Source: a virus. From it: a stretch of DNA of 23,962 nt. Shown here piece after piece: positions 3,480 to 22,204 of the stretch (its first letter is position 1; each line of letters begins with the position of its first letter). The notes under the pieces were generated by a model that was not told the DNA's origin, ran no database searches, and saw only the letters and a list, made by a program, of their open reading frames with translations. Both the position numbers and the translations under genes were made by a program. The stretch spans positions 1 through 23,962 of the IMG/VR virus record IMGVR_UViG_3300035698_003394; one strand, 5' to 3'.

Positions 3480-4481
3480 GACAAAAACTCTGTTGAGTTA
3501 TGGTGCGAGATTGGGACTGTTATTGACCCAGTTAGTGGTACAGCCTTAATTATATCTGGGAATGACTGTAAATTAAAAGGAAACCATCTTATAACACCTG
3601 CTGCTGCCGCAATCGGGTTACAGATTACAGGTACGGGGGCTATGGTTTCAGACGGCAAGGTGCTTGCTGGAGGTACTGGAGTTCAAATTACAGCGGCTGG
3701 TTCTGGCGCTACTTTTTATAATTATGTTGCAGGGTTACAAACTACTACATCTTGGGACATTGCTGCGGCTCAAGGAAGATTCTTTGAATGTGGAACAGTT
3801 GGGACTGGTGGGGCAACATATGGATTTAAAATTGGAGCTGTAGCGGCTGGTATTTTAAGAAATTGCACCTCTGCTGGACATGGAACCGCAGGGTTTTATA
3901 TTGCAAGTGGGGCAACCGGATGGACTTTAAAAGGCTGTTCTTCTGGTGTAGACGATGGCCGATGGGTTGATGTAGATGATAAGAATATGTGGGCCGATTT
4001 TAGTTATGATAAAGTGAAAACGGAAGTTACTGATTTCAGTGTTGTAGGTGGTGGAGCGGGAAGCCGGAATTTATTTAAGGTCACTGGCGTAGTTCAGATA
4101 CTTGGTTTGTCTGGCCATGTTGAAACAGCTCTTGCTGCTGATGTTGGGAATTTAAAATTTGAATTGTATGATGAAACTGATGTTGTGCTTATCTCTAATA
4201 ACGTGGATGTATCTAGTGCTCCTGTCGGATCATTTATAGTCCAAGAGAAAAAAGCGAATGATGCACTTGTAATGTACACCACAGCCTCAGCAAGAACGAT
4301 GGTTGAAACAGATCTTAAAAAGTTAGTGTTTGGTATAGTTGCCATAGAAAATGTGGGTGGAGACAGTACCTATATTCGGGTAACTTGGGCAGGCAATGCC
4401 GCATCAGGAGTTATTCATTGGCATTGTGAATGGGAACCTTTGACAGAAGAAGGCTTTGTTGAAAAGTATGTGGCACCATAA
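3477..4481 (+). CDS. beta-helix protein, second half with C-terminal domain
   Basis: The open frame actually begins at 3351, directly after the TGA and in the same frame as 2481-3350. The given start is only the first TTG (3477). It lacks a convincing ribosome binding site, and the frame has no ATG before about 3640. That makes independent translation doubtful and favours a nonsense mutation or readthrough. The 334 residues repeat the beta-helix coils of the first half (the CTSAGHGTAGFYIASGATGW segment matches CTSAGHGTSGFYVDTGSSSW). From about residue 180 they carry a separate beta-sandwich-like C-terminal domain (LFKVTGVVQILGLSGHVETA region, ending WHCEWEPLTEEGFVEKYVAP) of a kind seen at the C-terminus of phage appendage proteins. 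The first half lacks this domain. Confidence 0.6.
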   Translation: MDKNSVELWCEIGTVIDPVSGTALIISGNDCKLKGNHLITPAAAAIGLQITGTGAMVSDGKVLAGGTGVQITAAGSGATFYNYVAGLQTTTSWDIAAAQGRFFECGTVGTGGATYGFKIGAVAAGILRNCTSAGHGTAGFYIASGATGWTLKGCSSGVDDGRWVDVDDKNMWADFSYDKVKTEVTDFSVVGGGAGSRNLFKVTGVVQILGLSGHVETALAADVGNLKFELYDETDVVLISNNVDVSSAPVGSFIVQEKKANDALVMYTTASARTMVETDLKKLVFGIVAIENVGGDSTYIRVTWAGNAASGVIHWHCEWEPLTEEGFVEKYVAP

Positions 4482-6582: not shown

Positions 6583-6798
6583 ATGATTAAATTAAAATTA
6601 ATATCGCCGAATAAGGAGAATGATGAATGTCGGTGTTATGGATGCAATAAATTATTGGCTAAAATAAAAACAGTTGAAAGTTTAGCCATTATTGAGATAA
6701 AATGTACTAGAGCTAAATGTGGAATTATAAATAGATTTGAAATAGAAAGAAATATAGACTATGTTGATCCCACAAGAAATAAAAATACAGGCAGTTAA
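6583..6798 (+). CDS. Com-like zinc-finger protein
   Basis: This 71-residue protein resembles phage Mu Com, a zinc-finger RNA-binding activator of mom translation. It contains CRCYGCNKLLAK (C18 and C21 as a CxxC pair followed by NKLL, as in Com), then IEIKCTRAKC at residues 38-46 with C41 and C46 as the second pair, spaced CX4C here instead of CX2C. A fifth Cys is at 16. The CX4C spacing is atypical and could mean altered metal binding. No mom-type gene follows; the next large gene is the major tail tube. It starts 6 bases after the tail terminator stop and overlaps the next small gene by 38 bases. Confidence 0.7.
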   Translation: MIKLKLISPNKENDECRCYGCNKLLAKIKTVESLAIIEIKCTRAKCGIINRFEIERNIDYVDPTRNKNTGS

Positions 6799-7003: not shown

Positions 7004-8185
7004 ATGGATAGTAATAGAACTGCACTATACTATGGAGAAGAAGTTACTTGGGGTACGGCAGCTACCTGTACGTACCAGGCATTAAGATTCACAGGTGAAT
7101 CTTTTGCTTATAATATCAGCAATACTACAAGTGCTGAGATAAGGAGTGATCGTCAGGTTACAGATCTTATCCAGACTGATGCTGATGTTTCCGGGGGCTT
7201 CAATTTTGAATTTAGCTACGGGACTTTTGCAGACTTGCTTGAGGGTGCATTGTGGAGTGATTGGTCTACCCAACTTGCGATTTCTGCTTTAGGAATTGGT
7301 ATTGATGTTGCTGGTACTCTTACTGCTGGAACTGGCGCTACCGATGATACAGCTAATTTCTCTCTTGCAACTGTTGGACAGTGGATTGAGCTACGTGGTA
7401 GTTCCAATGTTACCAACAATGGGTATTACCAGATCACGGCTAAAGCAAGTTATGCGACTATGACTATAGCCCCTGTTCCTGATGCTACTGTGGCATCAGG
7501 AACAGATACTATTACAATAGTTGGATCTTATTTACGTAATGGTACGACTGAACATAGTTACACTTTTATTAGGGAACATGCCGGTCTTTCGTCCCCTTCT
7601 GCTCAGTACTTTAATTTTGTTGGTGCTGTGTGTAACTCTTTTTCACTTTCTGTTCAATCAGGATCTACTTTAACTGGTAGTTTCGATTTCATTGGAAAAA
7701 CTGCTACCCTTGCATCTGTTAATACTAATGTTAGTGGAGCAAGTGTTGCTTCCACTTACTCTATATTGAATGCTGTAACTAATGTAGCAGAGGTAAAGGA
7801 AGCGGGTTCTGATGTGGCTGATTGCTTGGTACAGGGTCTTGACTTCACTGTCGCCAATAATGTTCGTGGTTTAAAATCTATAGCTCAATTGGGGAATTGT
7901 GATATTGGTGTTGGGAAATGCGATGTAACTGGAACGCTTAATGCATTTTTCAAAGACAATTCTCTTTATGATAAGTATCTTGCTGGTACTACTTCTTACA
8001 TTTCTTTTAAGGTGGAAGATACTAGTGGAAATGCTTATATTTTTGATTTTCCGCAGATTGAATTTGAGTCTGATGGGGTAAATTCTGGTGGTCAGGATCA
8101 GGATGTAATGGAAGCCATTGGTTTTAGAGCTTACAAAGATCCTACCTATGGGTATACCATTCAGGTAAGTAAATTTGACGCTTAA
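7004..8185 (+). CDS. major tail tube protein
   Basis: This 393-residue protein should polymerise as rings around the tape measure. It matches the Phage_tube_2-type tail tube family: MDSNRTALYYGEEVTWGTA start, SAEIRSDRQVTDL near residues 43-55, SGGFNFEFSYGTFADLLEGA near 63-82. A module inserted at about 125-175 has GSSNVTNNGYYQITAKAS and the VASGTDTITIVG strand. The C-terminal half contains NVRGLKSIAQLGNCDIGVGK and FKDNSLYDKYLAGTT, and it ends in YTIQVSKFDA. It has the strongest ribosome binding site in the window (AAGGAGGAAG), fitting a very abundant product. A diverged second copy lies at 20951-22204. Its last codons contain the -35 box of the next promoter. Confidence 0.88.
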   Translation: MDSNRTALYYGEEVTWGTAATCTYQALRFTGESFAYNISNTTSAEIRSDRQVTDLIQTDADVSGGFNFEFSYGTFADLLEGALWSDWSTQLAISALGIGIDVAGTLTAGTGATDDTANFSLATVGQWIELRGSSNVTNNGYYQITAKASYATMTIAPVPDATVASGTDTITIVGSYLRNGTTEHSYTFIREHAGLSSPSAQYFNFVGAVCNSFSLSVQSGSTLTGSFDFIGKTATLASVNTNVSGASVASTYSILNAVTNVAEVKEAGSDVADCLVQGLDFTVANNVRGLKSIAQLGNCDIGVGKCDVTGTLNAFFKDNSLYDKYLAGTTSYISFKVEDTSGNAYIFDFPQIEFESDGVNSGGQDQDVMEAIGFRAYKDPTYGYTIQVSKFDA

Positions 8186-8203
8186 AGGTTGAGTTTTTAT
8201 AAT
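8175..8203 (+). promoter_or_regulatory. near-consensus sigma70 promoter
   Basis: TTGACG (8175-8180) is followed by a 17-base spacer and a perfect TATAAT (8198-8203). This is five of six and six of six consensus positions at the optimal spacing. Transcription would start near 8210. The -35 box lies inside the last codons of the tail tube gene. The next gene start is at 8276. Confidence 0.65.
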
Positions 8204-8236
8204 AGTTTATTAAAGGTTGATTTTTAATAAACTATT
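8201..8236. promoter_or_regulatory. perfect 14-bp inverted repeat over -10 and start site (candidate operator)
   Basis: AATAGTTTATTAAA (8201-8214) and TTTAATAAACTATT (8223-8236) are exact reverse complements separated by 8 bases; T8200/A8237 extends the match to 15 bp. The repeat overlaps the TATAAT box and the predicted start, where a dimeric repressor would block transcription. An outer GGTTGA/TCAACC pair (8187-8192 with 8240-8245) encloses it. In a readthrough transcript the same bases could form a hairpin. Confidence 0.55.
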
Positions 8237-8275
8237 AGATCAACCACTGGCTGTACGGATGTAGGTAATGACACT

Positions 8276-8548
8276 TTGGAATTTTCCCAGTTCCAAACAC
8301 TGCAAGAACTGGTGGAAGAACATGGAGCATCATATTTGAGTAGCTTAGTAGTCAAAAAAGGACATAAGCGATTTAGATCAGTTAAACCTTTTAATATGGG
8401 AGACACTGTTAAATTTCTTAGAGAATTTTTTATAGTAAAAGGTTACACAGGTTTTTCGTTAGGTTTTGTGGGGGAACCAAAATATAATTTCCCAATGGCA
8501 AAAACTGATTTGGTTCTAAAAAATGGGGGTATAGTTTTTATGAACTAA
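8276..8548 (+). CDS. hypothetical protein, likely moron gene
   Basis: The product has 90 residues and no recognised family. It begins at TTG (8276); the frame is open from 8231 but has no ATG there. AGG at 8263-8265 is a weak ribosome binding site about 10 bases upstream. The N-terminal third is helical (FQTLQELVEEHGASYLSSLV). The middle is basic (KKGHKRFRSV), and the rest is aromatic and probably beta-rich (FFIVKGYTGFSLGFVGEPKY). No membrane segment, signal peptide or cysteine is seen. A near-consensus promoter lies upstream and a terminator-like stem downstream, so it can be transcribed independently of the late operon. It interrupts the usual tail tube to chaperone order. The start codon is uncertain. 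Confidence 0.6.
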   Translation: MEFSQFQTLQELVEEHGASYLSSLVVKKGHKRFRSVKPFNMGDTVKFLREFFIVKGYTGFSLGFVGEPKYNFPMAKTDLVLKNGGIVFMN

Positions 8549-8562
8549 CTTTATAATAACCT

Positions 8563-8640
8563 ATTGGGTCAAATGTCTTGATGTTTGTGTGTGGTCACGT
8601 GCCCCGTGTCAGTACCCGTGAGATATTTGACCCAATTTTT
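8563..8640 (+). terminator. terminator-like 16-bp stem with structured loop
   Basis: ATTGGGTCAAATGTCT (8563-8578) pairs with AGATATTTGACCCAAT (8621-8636) over 16 bp with one G-U pair. T runs from 8636 to 8640. The 42-base loop contains CACG/CGTG pairs that could form a second hairpin. The long loop is unusual for an intrinsic terminator, so it may be weak or may be an RNA control element; AAGGGGG of the next gene follows immediately. Confidence 0.5.
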
Positions 8641-8655
8641 AAGGGGGAAATTAAA

Positions 8656-8976
8656 ATGGCAAAGGTAAGATTAGATGATTTTAACCCTAAAAGTGGTAAC
8701 TGGAATTCTTCTGATGTAATAGACTTAAAAGATTTTAATTTTAATGCAACTTTTAATAGTATTTATGGTGGAGTAGTTAGGGCTATTTTTATTGATGATA
8801 AAGGTAAATCTATTAGTAAAAAGGAGGCTATTCGTCTAAAGAAAGGGGTTGATTCTAAAAAAACTATTAAAAATAAACTTAAAAAGACTAAAATCGTAAA
8901 AAAAGATTTGACAAAGGGAAAAACTAATGATAATCTTAAAGAGGACTATGAAAGTAACGTAAAAGTTCTTGATTAA
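8656..8976 (+). CDS. small Lys-rich tail-region protein of unknown function
   Basis: The product has 106 residues. I chose ATG 8656 because AAGGGGG (8641-8647) lies ahead of it at good spacing. An in-frame ATG at 8578 exists, but that start would place the gene inside the strong stem-loop. The N-terminal half (MAKVRLDDFNPKSGNWNSSD, then DLKDFNFNATFNSIYGGVVR) looks globular. The C-terminal half is almost entirely Lys/Ser/Thr/Asp with repeated KK pairs and is probably disordered. It sits between the moron-like gene and the tail chaperones. I do not recognise the family; it may be tail-tube associated, but only its position suggests that. Confidence 0.65.
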   Translation: MAKVRLDDFNPKSGNWNSSDVIDLKDFNFNATFNSIYGGVVRAIFIDDKGKSISKKEAIRLKKGVDSKKTIKNKLKKTKIVKKDLTKGKTNDNLKEDYESNVKVLD

Positions 8977-8991
8977 CACGGGGAGGAGTAA

Positions 8992-9402
8992 ATGGCAGAT
9001 CTTAGGAGAATTTATGGTACAGACGAGAATAAAGAGATAACAGGAGTATGGCAAGATTTTGGTGATGGGATCGAAATGAAAATTGCTCGTATTGGTAATC
9101 CTAAATACCAGAAGTTATTTCAGAGGATTAGTAAACCTCATCGTAAGTCCATAAGAAGGGGCACGCTCAGAGAAGATGTCGCCGAGAAGTTGATGATTGA
9201 ATGTATGGCAGAGACAGTTCTTTTGGATTGGAAAAACATTGAGGTGGATGATGTTGCTCTTACTTATTCAAAAGAAAATGCAGTTAGGATTTTAACCGAA
9301 TTTAAAGACTTACGGGACTATGTAAATGATTTTGCAAATGACATGGAAGCGTATATGCAGGAAGATGTTGAAGAGATGGAGGAGGGCTTAAAAAACTCCT
9401 AA
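8992..9402 (+). CDS. tail assembly chaperone, short form (lambda G-like)
   Basis: This 136-residue protein sits where lambda G sits, between the tail tube and tape measure genes. The sequence fits the short chaperone form: an N-terminal segment with GVWQDFGDGIEMKIARIGNP, a central VAEKLMIECMAETVLLDWKN (W and acidic residues typical of tail chaperones that bind tape measure), and a strongly acidic end (EAYMQEDVEEMEEGLKNS). GGGGAGGAG precedes the ATG. The last codons contain the frameshift site for the extended form. Confidence 0.8.
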   Translation: MADLRRIYGTDENKEITGVWQDFGDGIEMKIARIGNPKYQKLFQRISKPHRKSIRRGTLREDVAEKLMIECMAETVLLDWKNIEVDDVALTYSKENAVRILTEFKDLRDYVNDFANDMEAYMQEDVEEMEEGLKNS

Positions 9403-9835: not shown

Positions 9836-12800
9836 ATGCCAGCTATTAATATAGTTATAAGCGAAAAGGGTTTAACAGAGGTCAAAAGTGCTTTAGATAG
9901 GTTGCAGACCTCTTTAAAGAAGGGGAAAACTGCGGCTGATGCTCTTAAAGATTCCTTTGGTAAAATGCCTACGGAAAAAGTAGTCGGTTTACTAGGTAAA
10001 GTACAAACTGGAGTTGAAAAATTAGAAAAGACTATAACTAAATATGATAAAGCTTTAGCAGAGGCTAAAGCTACCAGCGGACAATATGCTAAAGCCGTTG
10101 AGGAATTGGGTAAAAAATATGGTAAAACAGATGAAGCATTAAAAAGATGGCTTCCTTCTTTGAAGAAAGCTGAGGCAGCTATAAATAAAGAAGCTATGGC
10201 TCTGAATGCTGTTGGTAAAGCAGGAAGTAAATATTATAAAGAAACCAGTCGTATGAAGGTAATGAATGATCAATTAACTAAATCTACTAAAGCGGCTACT
10301 TCAGCACAAAATAAACTCAATGCAAGTACTAATAAAGGAAGTAAAGGTTTTGTTGGATTACTTCCTCATGTTGCTGCTGTTACCTTATCTTATATGGCTA
10401 TGAGGAGAGCAGTTAGAGCCGCAGTGGGTGCTATTGCTCTTGGAGTAGAATTTGAACAGCAAATGGCTTTAGTTGGGGGTATTGTTAGGGCAACCATAGA
10501 AGATTTTAAAATGTTGGAGGAGGCAGCAAAAAAAGCTGGTGAAACAACCGTTTGGACAGCAACAGAATCAGCAAAAGCTTTGCGATTTTTAGGTATGGCT
10601 GGTTTCTCTGCTGCGGAAAGTATATCTTCATTAACAGGAGTTCTTAATTTGGCATTAATTGGTGAATTGGATTTGTCTCGTGCCACTGATATTGCCACTG
10701 ATACATTACGTGCTTTTGGTTTAGAAGCAGTCGAACTGGATAGAATTGTTGATGTGATGGTTGGTACTATTACTCGTAGTAATACCAATATTGAAAAGAT
10801 GGGAATGGCAATGAAATTTGTTGCACCTATTGCGGCAAAACTTGGGTATGAAATTGAAGAAGTTTCCGCAATGATTGGTGTTCTCTCGCAATCAGGTATC
10901 AAATCAGGTATGGCAGGACGTTCTCTTCGTATGTCTTTCCTTAGATCCGCAGATGCAGCAATTAAATTAGGTATGGAATCAACTAATTTGATGGATATTT
11001 TGAAGGAACTTAACAGTAGAGATCTCTCTCCAGTAGTACTTACATCTACTTTAAAAGATTTATTTGGGCTTAGAGCTACTCCAGCTATGTTAACTTTGAT
11101 GGCTGGTATTGAACAAGTTGAAAAATTTACAGAAACATTACAAGATGCCACTGGTGAAACCGATGAGTTTATTGAACGCTTAAATACTGTTGATGTTGCG
11201 TGGCGTAAATTAAAATCCGTAATAACTGATGTAGCTATTGAAATATTTACGCAGTATTCTGAAGAAATTAAAAAATCATTACAAGATATTACTGTTTGGA
11301 TGAAAGATAATAAAAGTACAATAAAGGCATTTTTTGCCATGTTTGTTGATGGTCCAAAGGCTGCTATTGTAGTAATAAAAGAACTTCTTGAAAGTTTACG
11401 TGAGTTAGCTACATTTGGTGGTCTTCTTGACGTTTTTTTTAAACAACCAGAAGGAAGTCCTGGTTGGGCTTCTGCCATACCAGATACATTGGTTGATATT
11501 GAAAATTGGTGGAATGATGTTGGAAAATTAACTAAAGAAGGGGAAGTTGCACTTGATAAATATGCTGAAAAATTAACGAAGCTTTCCGAAGTAGCGGCTA
11601 AAGTTCCTGTTGATTTATCTGCTGTAAAGTACATAAATCCAATGAGTTATATGGATGAAAGTGATTTAGATGCTTATCTTGAGCTAATTACATTGACTGA
11701 AAAACACTATGCGATTATCAAAAAAATAGCAAAACCAATGGCGGATATTGAATGGACACCTGGAGGTTTCCAAGAAGTTGAAGATTTTGCTGGTAGTTTA
11801 GATATGACGACAAAGAGTGGCAAAGCACTTGAAAAAGAACTTAAAAAATTAGCGGATATTGAATGGACACCTGGAGGTTTCCAAGAAGTTGAAGATTTTG
11901 CTGGTAGTTTAGATATGACGACAAAAAGTGCCAAGACTCTTAAAAAGGAATTAAAAAAATTAGCGGATATTGAATGGACTCCAGGTGGATTTAGAGAAGC
12001 TGAAGACTTTGCTGGTAGTTTAGATATGACGACAAAAAGTGCCAAGACTCTTGAAAAAGAACTTAAAAAATTAGCAGATGTTGAATGGTTGCCGGGTGGA
12101 TTTAGAGAAGCTGAAGACTTTGCTGGTAGTTTGGATACTGTTAGTAAAAGTGCTAAAGCACTTGAAAAAGAACTTAAAAAATTAGCGGATATTGAATGGA
12201 CTCCAGGTGGATTTAGAGAGGCTGAAGATTTTGCTGGTAGTTTAGATAGTATAACAGAAAGTAGTAAAAAATTAAAAACTGCGTTAGAAAAATTAGCAGA
12301 TGTTGAATGGTTGCCGGGTGGATTTAGAGAAGCTGAAGACTTTGCTGGTAGTATAGAATTTATCAGTAAATTTGATGCTGAGGTACTTAAGCAGACATTT
12401 GCTATGTCGGAAACTCTTTTCAAGATTTCAGATGCTGCCATAAAAAAGCGGCTTTTGAATGAAACTAATTTAGTAGTAGAGGCGTATGCGCAACGTTTAG
12501 ATGTTTCTCAAATGTATGCTAATGATGAATTTGGTTTTATTAAAGCCATAAATGCTTTTACCGTAAGTGAACTTAAAAAACGTGTGAGTGAAGAATTACG
12601 GATTATACAGACCAGAACTAAGGATATAAAAGAAGAATTAGCCAAGTTAGCAGAAATTGAGTGGCTTCCTGGTGGTTTTAGAGAGGCAGAAGACTTTGAC
12701 AGTAGTTATATACCAAAGGATACCGTAGATAAAGATGAACAGTTGTTAAAGCAACAGTTAAATGCCCAACGTCAATTCTATAAAGCAATGGGGAAATTAA

Positions 12801-20950: not shown

Positions 20951-22204
20951 GTGGAAAGTAATAGAACAATATTATACTATGCTGAAGAAACTACATGGGG
21001 AAATGAATCCACAGGTACGTATCAGGCTTTGCGTTTCACAAGTGAATCTTTTACCTATAATATTCAAAGTATTATCAGTGCGGAAATAAGAAAAGATAGA
21101 CAAATAGCTGATCATGTCAGAGTAGCTGGTGGTGTAGCAGGTGGTTTTATTTATGAATTTAGTTATGATACTTTTTCTGAGTTAATAGAAGGGGCATTGT
21201 GGAGTGATTGGTCAAGGGTATACATTTCTTCTGACGGCATAGGTATTAATGTAGATGGAACTATTTCTTCAGGATTAGGAGATGCCAGTAGAGGTTTTTC
21301 TTTAGTTACTGTTGGTCAGTGGATAGAAATAAGTGGAAGTTCTAATGCAACTAATAATGACTACTATCAGGTAACGGCTAAAGCAAGTAACTATGAGATA
21401 ACCGTTTCTCCGACCCCAGATGCTACCGTAGCGTCTGGTACTGATGAAATAGTAATAGGTGGCTCTATTATTCGCAACGGGGTTACAAAGCACTCTTATA
21501 CATTCATAAGAGAACATGCAAAATTTGGACATACAGATCTTTACTATTTTACTTTTTTAGGTGCTGTATGTAATTCTTTTTCTCTTTCTATGAAAGCGGG
21601 ATCTATTGTTTCTGGTAATTTCACCTTTGTTGGTAAATCTGCCACATTAGCTTCTGTAAATACCAATACTTCTGCTGCGGATTCAGCTACAACTACTACG
21701 CCATTAAATACTTCTGTAGATATATCAAATTTAAAAATTGGCACAGAACTAGATTCTCCAGTTTGCTTAGTAAATGGTTTAGAATTTACATTAGTAAATA
21801 ATGTTAGAGGAATGAAAGCCATTGCTGAATTAGGTAATTGTAATGTTGGTGTTGGAAAATGTGATATAGTTGGAACTATAACTGCATTTTTTAAGGATGC
21901 CACATTATATGATAAATATTTAGCTGGAACTACTTCCTCATTATCTTTCAGAGTGACGGACGATGATGATAATTCTTATATTATAGATTTTCCTTGCATA
22001 AAATTTACTACAGATGCTATTAATACAGGTGGTTTAGATCAAAGTGTTATGGAAGTTATTAAATTTAGAGCTATAAGAGACAATTCTTATGGCTATACAG
22101 TACAAATAAGTAGATTTGATTCTACAATAGTAGCACCTTTTATGATTACAGAAGATGGAGATTTTTTAATGACAGAAGATGGAGATTATTTAATTCCAGA
22201 ATAA
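20951..22204 (+). CDS. second tail tube protein paralogue
   Basis: This 417-residue protein is clearly homologous along its full length to the tail tube protein at 7004-8185. It shares MESNRTILYYAEETTWGNES, SAEIRKDRQIADH, GGFIYEFSYDTFSELIEGAL, the GSSNATNNDYYQVTAKAS module, NVRGMKAIAELGNCNVGVGK, FKDATLYDKYLAGTTSSLSF and YTVQISRFDS. It differs by a 24-residue C-terminal extension containing TEDGDFLMTEDGDYLIPE. The start is GTG with GGGGG 9 bases upstream, a weaker site than that of the first tail tube gene. The gene has its own strong promoter. Its codons are AT-richer than those of the first copy. It could replace tube subunits in a distinct part of the tail or at another stage. It is unlikely to be a pseudogene: the frame is intact and conserved residues are kept. 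Confidence 0.85.
   Translation: MESNRTILYYAEETTWGNESTGTYQALRFTSESFTYNIQSIISAEIRKDRQIADHVRVAGGVAGGFIYEFSYDTFSELIEGALWSDWSRVYISSDGIGINVDGTISSGLGDASRGFSLVTVGQWIEISGSSNATNNDYYQVTAKASNYEITVSPTPDATVASGTDEIVIGGSIIRNGVTKHSYTFIREHAKFGHTDLYYFTFLGAVCNSFSLSMKAGSIVSGNFTFVGKSATLASVNTNTSAADSATTTTPLNTSVDISNLKIGTELDSPVCLVNGLEFTLVNNVRGMKAIAELGNCNVGVGKCDIVGTITAFFKDATLYDKYLAGTTSSLSFRVTDDDDNSYIIDFPCIKFTTDAINTGGLDQSVMEVIKFRAIRDNSYGYTVQISRFDSTIVAPFMITEDGDFLMTEDGDYLIPE

Follow-up and report, generated by a model that had tools for sequence, protein, structure and literature searches.

A gene inserted beside an older conserved hairpin that probably controls tail assembly chaperone synthesis in uncultured phages

ORF90, a 90-codon gene located between the tail tube and tail assembly chaperone genes of a virus (IMG/VR record IMGVR_UViG_3300035698_003394; the whole stretch of 23,962 nucleotides that was analysed is called the window), seems to have been inserted beside an older cis-acting RNA, a conserved hairpin that would control translation of the chaperone gene through pairing of its loop with the chaperone ribosome-binding site. 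We hold this reading with moderate confidence. A siphophage requires tail-tube subunits in large number but little of the tail assembly chaperone, and frameshifting is the known device that gives two forms of the chaperone; how the level of chaperone synthesis is adjusted to that of the tube is, to our knowledge, not generally known. An element that reaches from the tube gene to the chaperone ribosome-binding site, and that persists despite cargo genes on either side, would offer a testable answer in uncultured phages. The locus also illustrates how an insertion can be credited with a terminator that is instead an adjacent regulatory RNA. The features are listed in Table 1.

Table 1. Features of the tail tube-chaperone region of the window.
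Feature	Coordinates	Strand	Remarks
Major tail tube gene (Phage_tube_2)	7004..8185	+	Pfam PF18906, E 2e-45; phrog_290
Promoter-like site, TTGACG-N17-TATAAT	8175..8203	+	-35 in tail-tube codons, -10 in AT-rich hairpin
Window-specific insertion, tail-tube stop to hairpin	8186..8562	+	Edges approximate; absent in L007-L027 and distant relatives
AT-rich hairpin, GGTTGA/TCAACC closing, within insertion	8187..8245	+	Inverted repeat 8193-8214/8223-8244, 86%
TTTATAATA, left copy	8196..8204	+	Tentative duplication flanking insertion, read from sequence
ORF90, putative inserted accessory gene, unknown family	8276..8548	+	90 codons, TTG start
TTTATAATA, right copy	8550..8558	+	Read from sequence
Conserved two-tier RNA hairpin	8563..8636	+	P1 8563-8578/8621-8636; inner helix, apical loop around CCCCG
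Loop sequence CCCCGTGT	8602..8609	+	Sole CCCCG on + strand of window
Site A candidate, GGGGG, ribosome-binding site of small gene, hairpin-proximal	8643..8647	+	CCCC pairing only (4 bp)
Small conserved gene, hairpin to chaperone	8656..8976	+	Similar small gene 3' of hairpin in close relatives
Site B, ACACGGGG, chaperone ribosome-binding site	8976..8983	+	Perfect complement of 8602-8609
Tail assembly chaperone gene, proposed target	8992..9402	+	phrog_313, E 7e-22

The outer helix of the hairpin, P1, is a 16-nt stem with 94% complementarity whose arms are separated by 42 nt rather than by a loop of terminator size, and the apical loop above the inner helix, which is less regular in the window than in its relatives, is nearly invariant across loci (UGU(N)RCCCCGUG). 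The hairpin is kept in all close relatives with a complete interval, where the same two-tier structure follows the tail-tube stop without ORF90, and profile searches with tail-tube alignments added no fewer than 15 distant loci that have it. A tail-tube stop followed by a C4G-loop hairpin is found in L053, L069, L077, L087, L129, L158, L160, L165, L173, L185, L187, L189, and L206, and later in L209 and L270; L044, L045, and L048 have the hairpin with extra sequence ahead of it. All hairpin-bearing relatives are uncultured contigs, and except for L209 and L270 they were picked by eye from the interval sequences. The RNAalifold consensus of P1 has 16 pairs, 10 of them with changes on both sides; together with the inner helix there are 21 pairs, 13 with double changes, and 93.6% of cells are paired, covariation that none of 500 shuffles matched (slid controls were 34-43% paired). 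Folded individually, the hairpins of the window clade have z scores of -3.6 to -6. Among cultured phages of this tail-tube family (Xp15, Lucjan, AQKL99, DoCa5, SSP002, PVA73, RpAliso, XM05, DC31, and others), those that were read showed no C4G hairpin. Rfam, searched at gathering and relaxed thresholds with the window region and 18 related loci, gave no family match, its lone hit being to HEARO (17 bits against a cut-off of 83) and attributed to chance, and no account of a comparable element turned up in the literature searches. Stop-codon read-through driven by the hairpin was considered and rejected, as the frames after the stop soon close, by reading, in several relatives.

In L044 (5173-5320), L045 (4836-4990), and L048 (3765-3930), the stretch from the tail-tube stop to the C4G hairpin contains a promoter-like site with TTGACA, some 100 nt of sequence that is conserved in part (ACGGAAAGCCAAACCTA...GAGCTTCA...AAGCCCGGGTTGA in L045 and L048), and a strong hairpin resembling a terminator. 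Judged by these features, the interval looks like a small RNA gene; it has no match in Rfam.

The gene directly next to the hairpin (8656-8976) is a separate small gene, and the tail chaperone is encoded at 8992-9402. The loop (CCCCGUGU, 8602-8609) and the chaperone ribosome-binding site (ACACGGGG, 8976-8983) match perfectly over 8 nt, and the chaperone gene is the only accepted gene of the window with CGGGG at its start; one further CGGGG in the window precedes an internal frame at 3642. With the chaperone located in each locus by profile and CGGGG counted within 25 nt of its start, the motif occurs in the chaperone ribosome-binding site of 24 of the 28 loci that have the hairpin and in none of the 51 that lack it (Fisher p 2e-16, to be read as an index and not as a probability because the loci are related), and in about 14 of the 15 hairpin-bearing groups that we formed from the tail tubes. 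The exceptions among the 28 are L044, L045, and L048, in which the hairpin stands without CGGGG at the chaperone, and L016, which has AAGGGGC. Other gene-like starts in these loci have CGGGG in 6 of 171 cases, two of which are the hairpin-proximal site A described below (L185 and L187), and in the same phages most tail-tube genes carry a usual ribosome-binding site of the GGAG type. The predicted duplex of the loop with the chaperone ribosome-binding site averages -12.9 kcal/mol, versus -7.1 with that of the tail tube (paired p 2e-4), while the anti-Shine-Dalgarno sequence binds more weakly to the chaperone site (-8.1) than to the tail-tube site (-10.5). In a 78-kb relative, the coding strand has a single occurrence of the loop motif. 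The loop-ribosome-binding site core is near-invariant, so there is little covariation signal within it. What is conserved is an upstream element complementary to a downstream ribosome-binding site, as would be expected of a long-range operator. A tail-tube gene of the window clade, in L017 (position 1880), has the ribosome-binding site GCGGGGG in place of GGAGG.

From the loop to the chaperone start the distance is about 390 nt in the window, 565 nt in L185, 570 nt in L209, and 820 nt in L158 and L187. Hairpin and chaperone are separated by one small gene in the window clade and by other genes in L158, L185, L187, and L209, and in these loci the chaperone retains ACGGGG, as it does in L023, where a TnpB-like insertion of about 1.5 kb lies in between. 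L209 was found through its chaperone alone, and the predicted hairpin was then located by pattern search at position 1880, directly after the tail-tube stop and beyond an acyltransferase-like gene. Among the matches listed by a DNA pattern scan of the viral collection, only the contig of L077 and L270, a new locus with the full layout, had the pattern between tail tube and chaperone; most of the listed matches were unrelated repetitive sequence with GGGGTGCA repeats and were set aside. L209 and L270 both bear out the association. The cargo gene in the hairpin-chaperone interval of L209 (1929-2456) is hexapeptide-repeat-like, and the TnpB-like (IS200/IS605) gene of L023 (2930-4400; also in L024 and L025) was placed by reading at the end of the outer helix of the hairpin. 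From the gene content of these loci, the hairpin-chaperone junction seems to be an accessory-gene hotspot.

The hairpin might instead be an attenuator, or a protector of the mRNA 3' end after the tail tube gene, with CGGGG merely a phage-specific Shine-Dalgarno sequence. Hairpins after the major tail gene are common in other phages, and the window, like some of its relatives, has a T run 3' of the stem, but we consider this explanation unlikely: it accounts neither for the conserved loop nor for its complementarity to the chaperone ribosome-binding site, the tail tubes of the same phages have standard GGAGG-type sites, and CGGGG is absent from all 51 hairpin-less loci. The T run of the window (8636-8640) adjoins the stem, a terminator scan made no call there, and L007, L069, L077, L158, L206, and L209 have no T run. 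The hairpin does not conform to the pattern of an intrinsic terminator, in which a T run follows a short stem that is rich in G+C and has a small loop. Control of chaperone synthesis by the hairpin is the probable alternative.

ORF90 occurs in none of about 20 IMG/VR loci with tail tubes 66-83% identical to that of the window, and in the close-relative intervals that are covered, tail-tube stop and hairpin are kept apart by only a short spacer of about 1-20 nt; ORF90 and the AT-rich hairpin are therefore regarded as an insertion in the lineage of the window. By this comparison ORF90 is a recent insertion beside an older RNA element, in agreement with the preliminary description, which had expected no gene at this position in related phages: it is present in the window only and absent from the same interval of every relative that was read. 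The insertion probably adjoined a TTTATAATA repeat, tentatively recognized from the two copies of Table 1. The only Blastn match of the insertion, between its AT-rich hairpin and Polaribacter phages (E 0.03), was taken as chance, and an IS200/IS605-like element was rejected, a transposase being absent.

ORF90 looks like a coding gene, as first described, with its TTG start. A 90-codon frame arises in 0.15% of shuffled inserts, and the codon score of ORF90 (0.108, versus a mean of -0.40 for out-of-frame stretches) is similar to those of held-out small genes of the window (0.106-0.225) and lower than those of its main genes, so that ORF90 is coding-like but unlike the latter. No strong Shine-Dalgarno sequence precedes the TTG codon. 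The family remains unassigned, as had been stated, after searches of Pfam, PHROGs, NCBIfam, PADLOC, and PDB sequences gave no match, and no homologues were found in viral contigs, phages, plasmids, or the large related records. A single-sequence AlphaFold2 model had a mean pLDDT of 52 and was set aside.

The promoter-like site reported upstream of ORF90 is where it was said to be, with TTGACG from 8175, a 17-nt spacer, and TATAAT ending at 8203, matching 11 of 12 consensus bases. Under a Markov model of the window, about 0.003 such matches are expected per 100 nt; on the + strand of the 24-kb window there are 3 versus 0.8 expected, and in the scanned 19 kb there are 68 promoter-like sites versus 71 expected, hence no overall excess. 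The -35 box belongs to the final codons of the tail tube gene, and L007, a relative that lacks the insert, has the identical hexamer. The AT-rich hairpin, overlooked in the preliminary description, lies directly 3' of the tail-tube stop and includes the -10 box; an RNA start near 8210 would fall inside it and split it. The region that includes this hairpin folds more strongly than shuffles (z -3.3).

The preliminary description suggested that ORF90 may be a moron, a self-contained cassette with its own promoter and with the 16-bp stem and TTTTT as terminator, whose product may act on the host; in the strict sense, such a gene would also be expressed from a prophage. The promoter match, the T run 3' of the stem, and the restriction of the gene to the window are in keeping with this account. 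It is nonetheless improbable, since the -35 box is tail-tube coding sequence and the hairpin, which relatives possess without ORF90, predates the gene. The stem and the T run are present as described, but the hairpin is an older element and so is not the terminator of ORF90, its arms being 42 nt apart and the T run missing from several relatives; the inserted gene stands, its private terminator does not. Lysogeny and an action of ORF90 on the host gain no support, and no integrase was found in the window or in four related records (78, 36, 120, and 78 kb), all possibly incomplete. We propose that transcription of the tail operon accounts for most of the expression of ORF90, to which a weak promoter belonging to the gene may contribute. 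Very improbable is the explanation that a phage or host DNA-binding protein reads CACGGGG in both directions at two sites, with RNA pairing irrelevant: CCCCGT and ACGGGG are reverse complements that one protein could select, but one copy always occupies the apical part of a hairpin whose helices covary, and the other coincides with the position of the Shine-Dalgarno sequence, an arrangement expected from RNA pairing and not from DNA binding.

The window contains a second, diverged tail-tube gene (20951-22204) with a C-terminal extension (MITEDGDFLMTEDGDYLIPE) and no CCCCG-loop hairpin after it. A small zinc-ribbon protein resembling Com of phage Mu, a translational regulator, is encoded shortly before the tail tube (6583-6798). 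Among the virion genes is a glycosyltransferase family 2 gene with a TPR-like C-terminus (527-1759; phrog_13126), and the tape-measure gene has several near-identical repeats, LADIEWTPGGFxEAEDFAGSLDxxTKSAK (11700-12450).

The best reading of the conserved hairpin is that of a cis-acting RNA that would repress the chaperone gene or couple it to upstream translation. Placed right after the upstream stop codon, the hairpin would present its UGU(N)RCCCCGUG loop for base pairing with ACGGGG in the chaperone ribosome-binding site, which would become inaccessible for initiation; a ribosome that ends translation immediately before the hairpin would open the base of P1 and free the site. In this way the chaperone would be made in step with translation of whichever gene lies upstream, as a rule that of the tail tube. 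The relief of repression by upstream translation is modelled on the MS2 coat-replicase pair and on the RNA-unfolding model. In relatives the loop lies 27-60 nt past the upstream stop codon, close enough that P1 would be covered or opened at its base by a ribosome terminating there. The loop of the window is 417 nt from the tail-tube stop and 54 nt from the ORF90 stop; judged by position, ORF90 occupies the place of the upstream gene relative to the hairpin.

In many loci a second CGGGG, site A, immediately follows the hairpin; in the window it amounts to GGGG only. Site A could pair with the same loop as a pseudoknot, in competition with the chaperone site, giving a switch. The base 3' of site A often matches the one that precedes CCCC in the loop, as GGGGC with GCCCC (L087, L160, L165, L173, and L187), GGGGT with ACCCC (L129 and L158), and GGGGA with TCCCC (L053); permutation gave a modest signal, with p 0.035 for the length and 0.16 for this single flanking pair. 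On these correspondences, a site A pseudoknot competing for the loop is reasonable but unproven. It is possible, and we suggest it tentatively, that the loop alternates between the proximal CGGGG and the distant chaperone ribosome-binding site as a widespread, undescribed phage RNA switch; if so, the switch would set the ratio of tail tube to chaperone across as much as 1.5 kb and several cargo-gene insertions.

Like the morons of lambdoid phages, ORF90 is an extra gene between virion genes that is missing in relatives; it differs from them in having no terminator of its own and a doubtful promoter, and in that lysogeny and a host effect are unsupported. The proposed control resembles that in MS2, where a part of the upstream mRNA pairs with the downstream initiation region and upstream translation lifts the block. 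Long-distance RNA interactions have been described for the translational coupling of the MS2 coat and replicase genes (PMC9894550). Common to both would be an upstream mRNA element complementary to a downstream ribosome-binding site and relief by upstream translation, which for the present phages is our inference. The phages considered here differ in being tailed DNA phages, with the loop of a dedicated intergenic hairpin in place of coding sequence as in MS2, predicted pairing over distances of up to about 1.5 kb, and a possible second partner site. The RNA-unfolding model of translational coupling has been reviewed for genes VII and IX of phage f1 (PMC12548453); there the ribosome-binding site is masked by a local hairpin, whereas here the masked site would be distant and reached by the loop.
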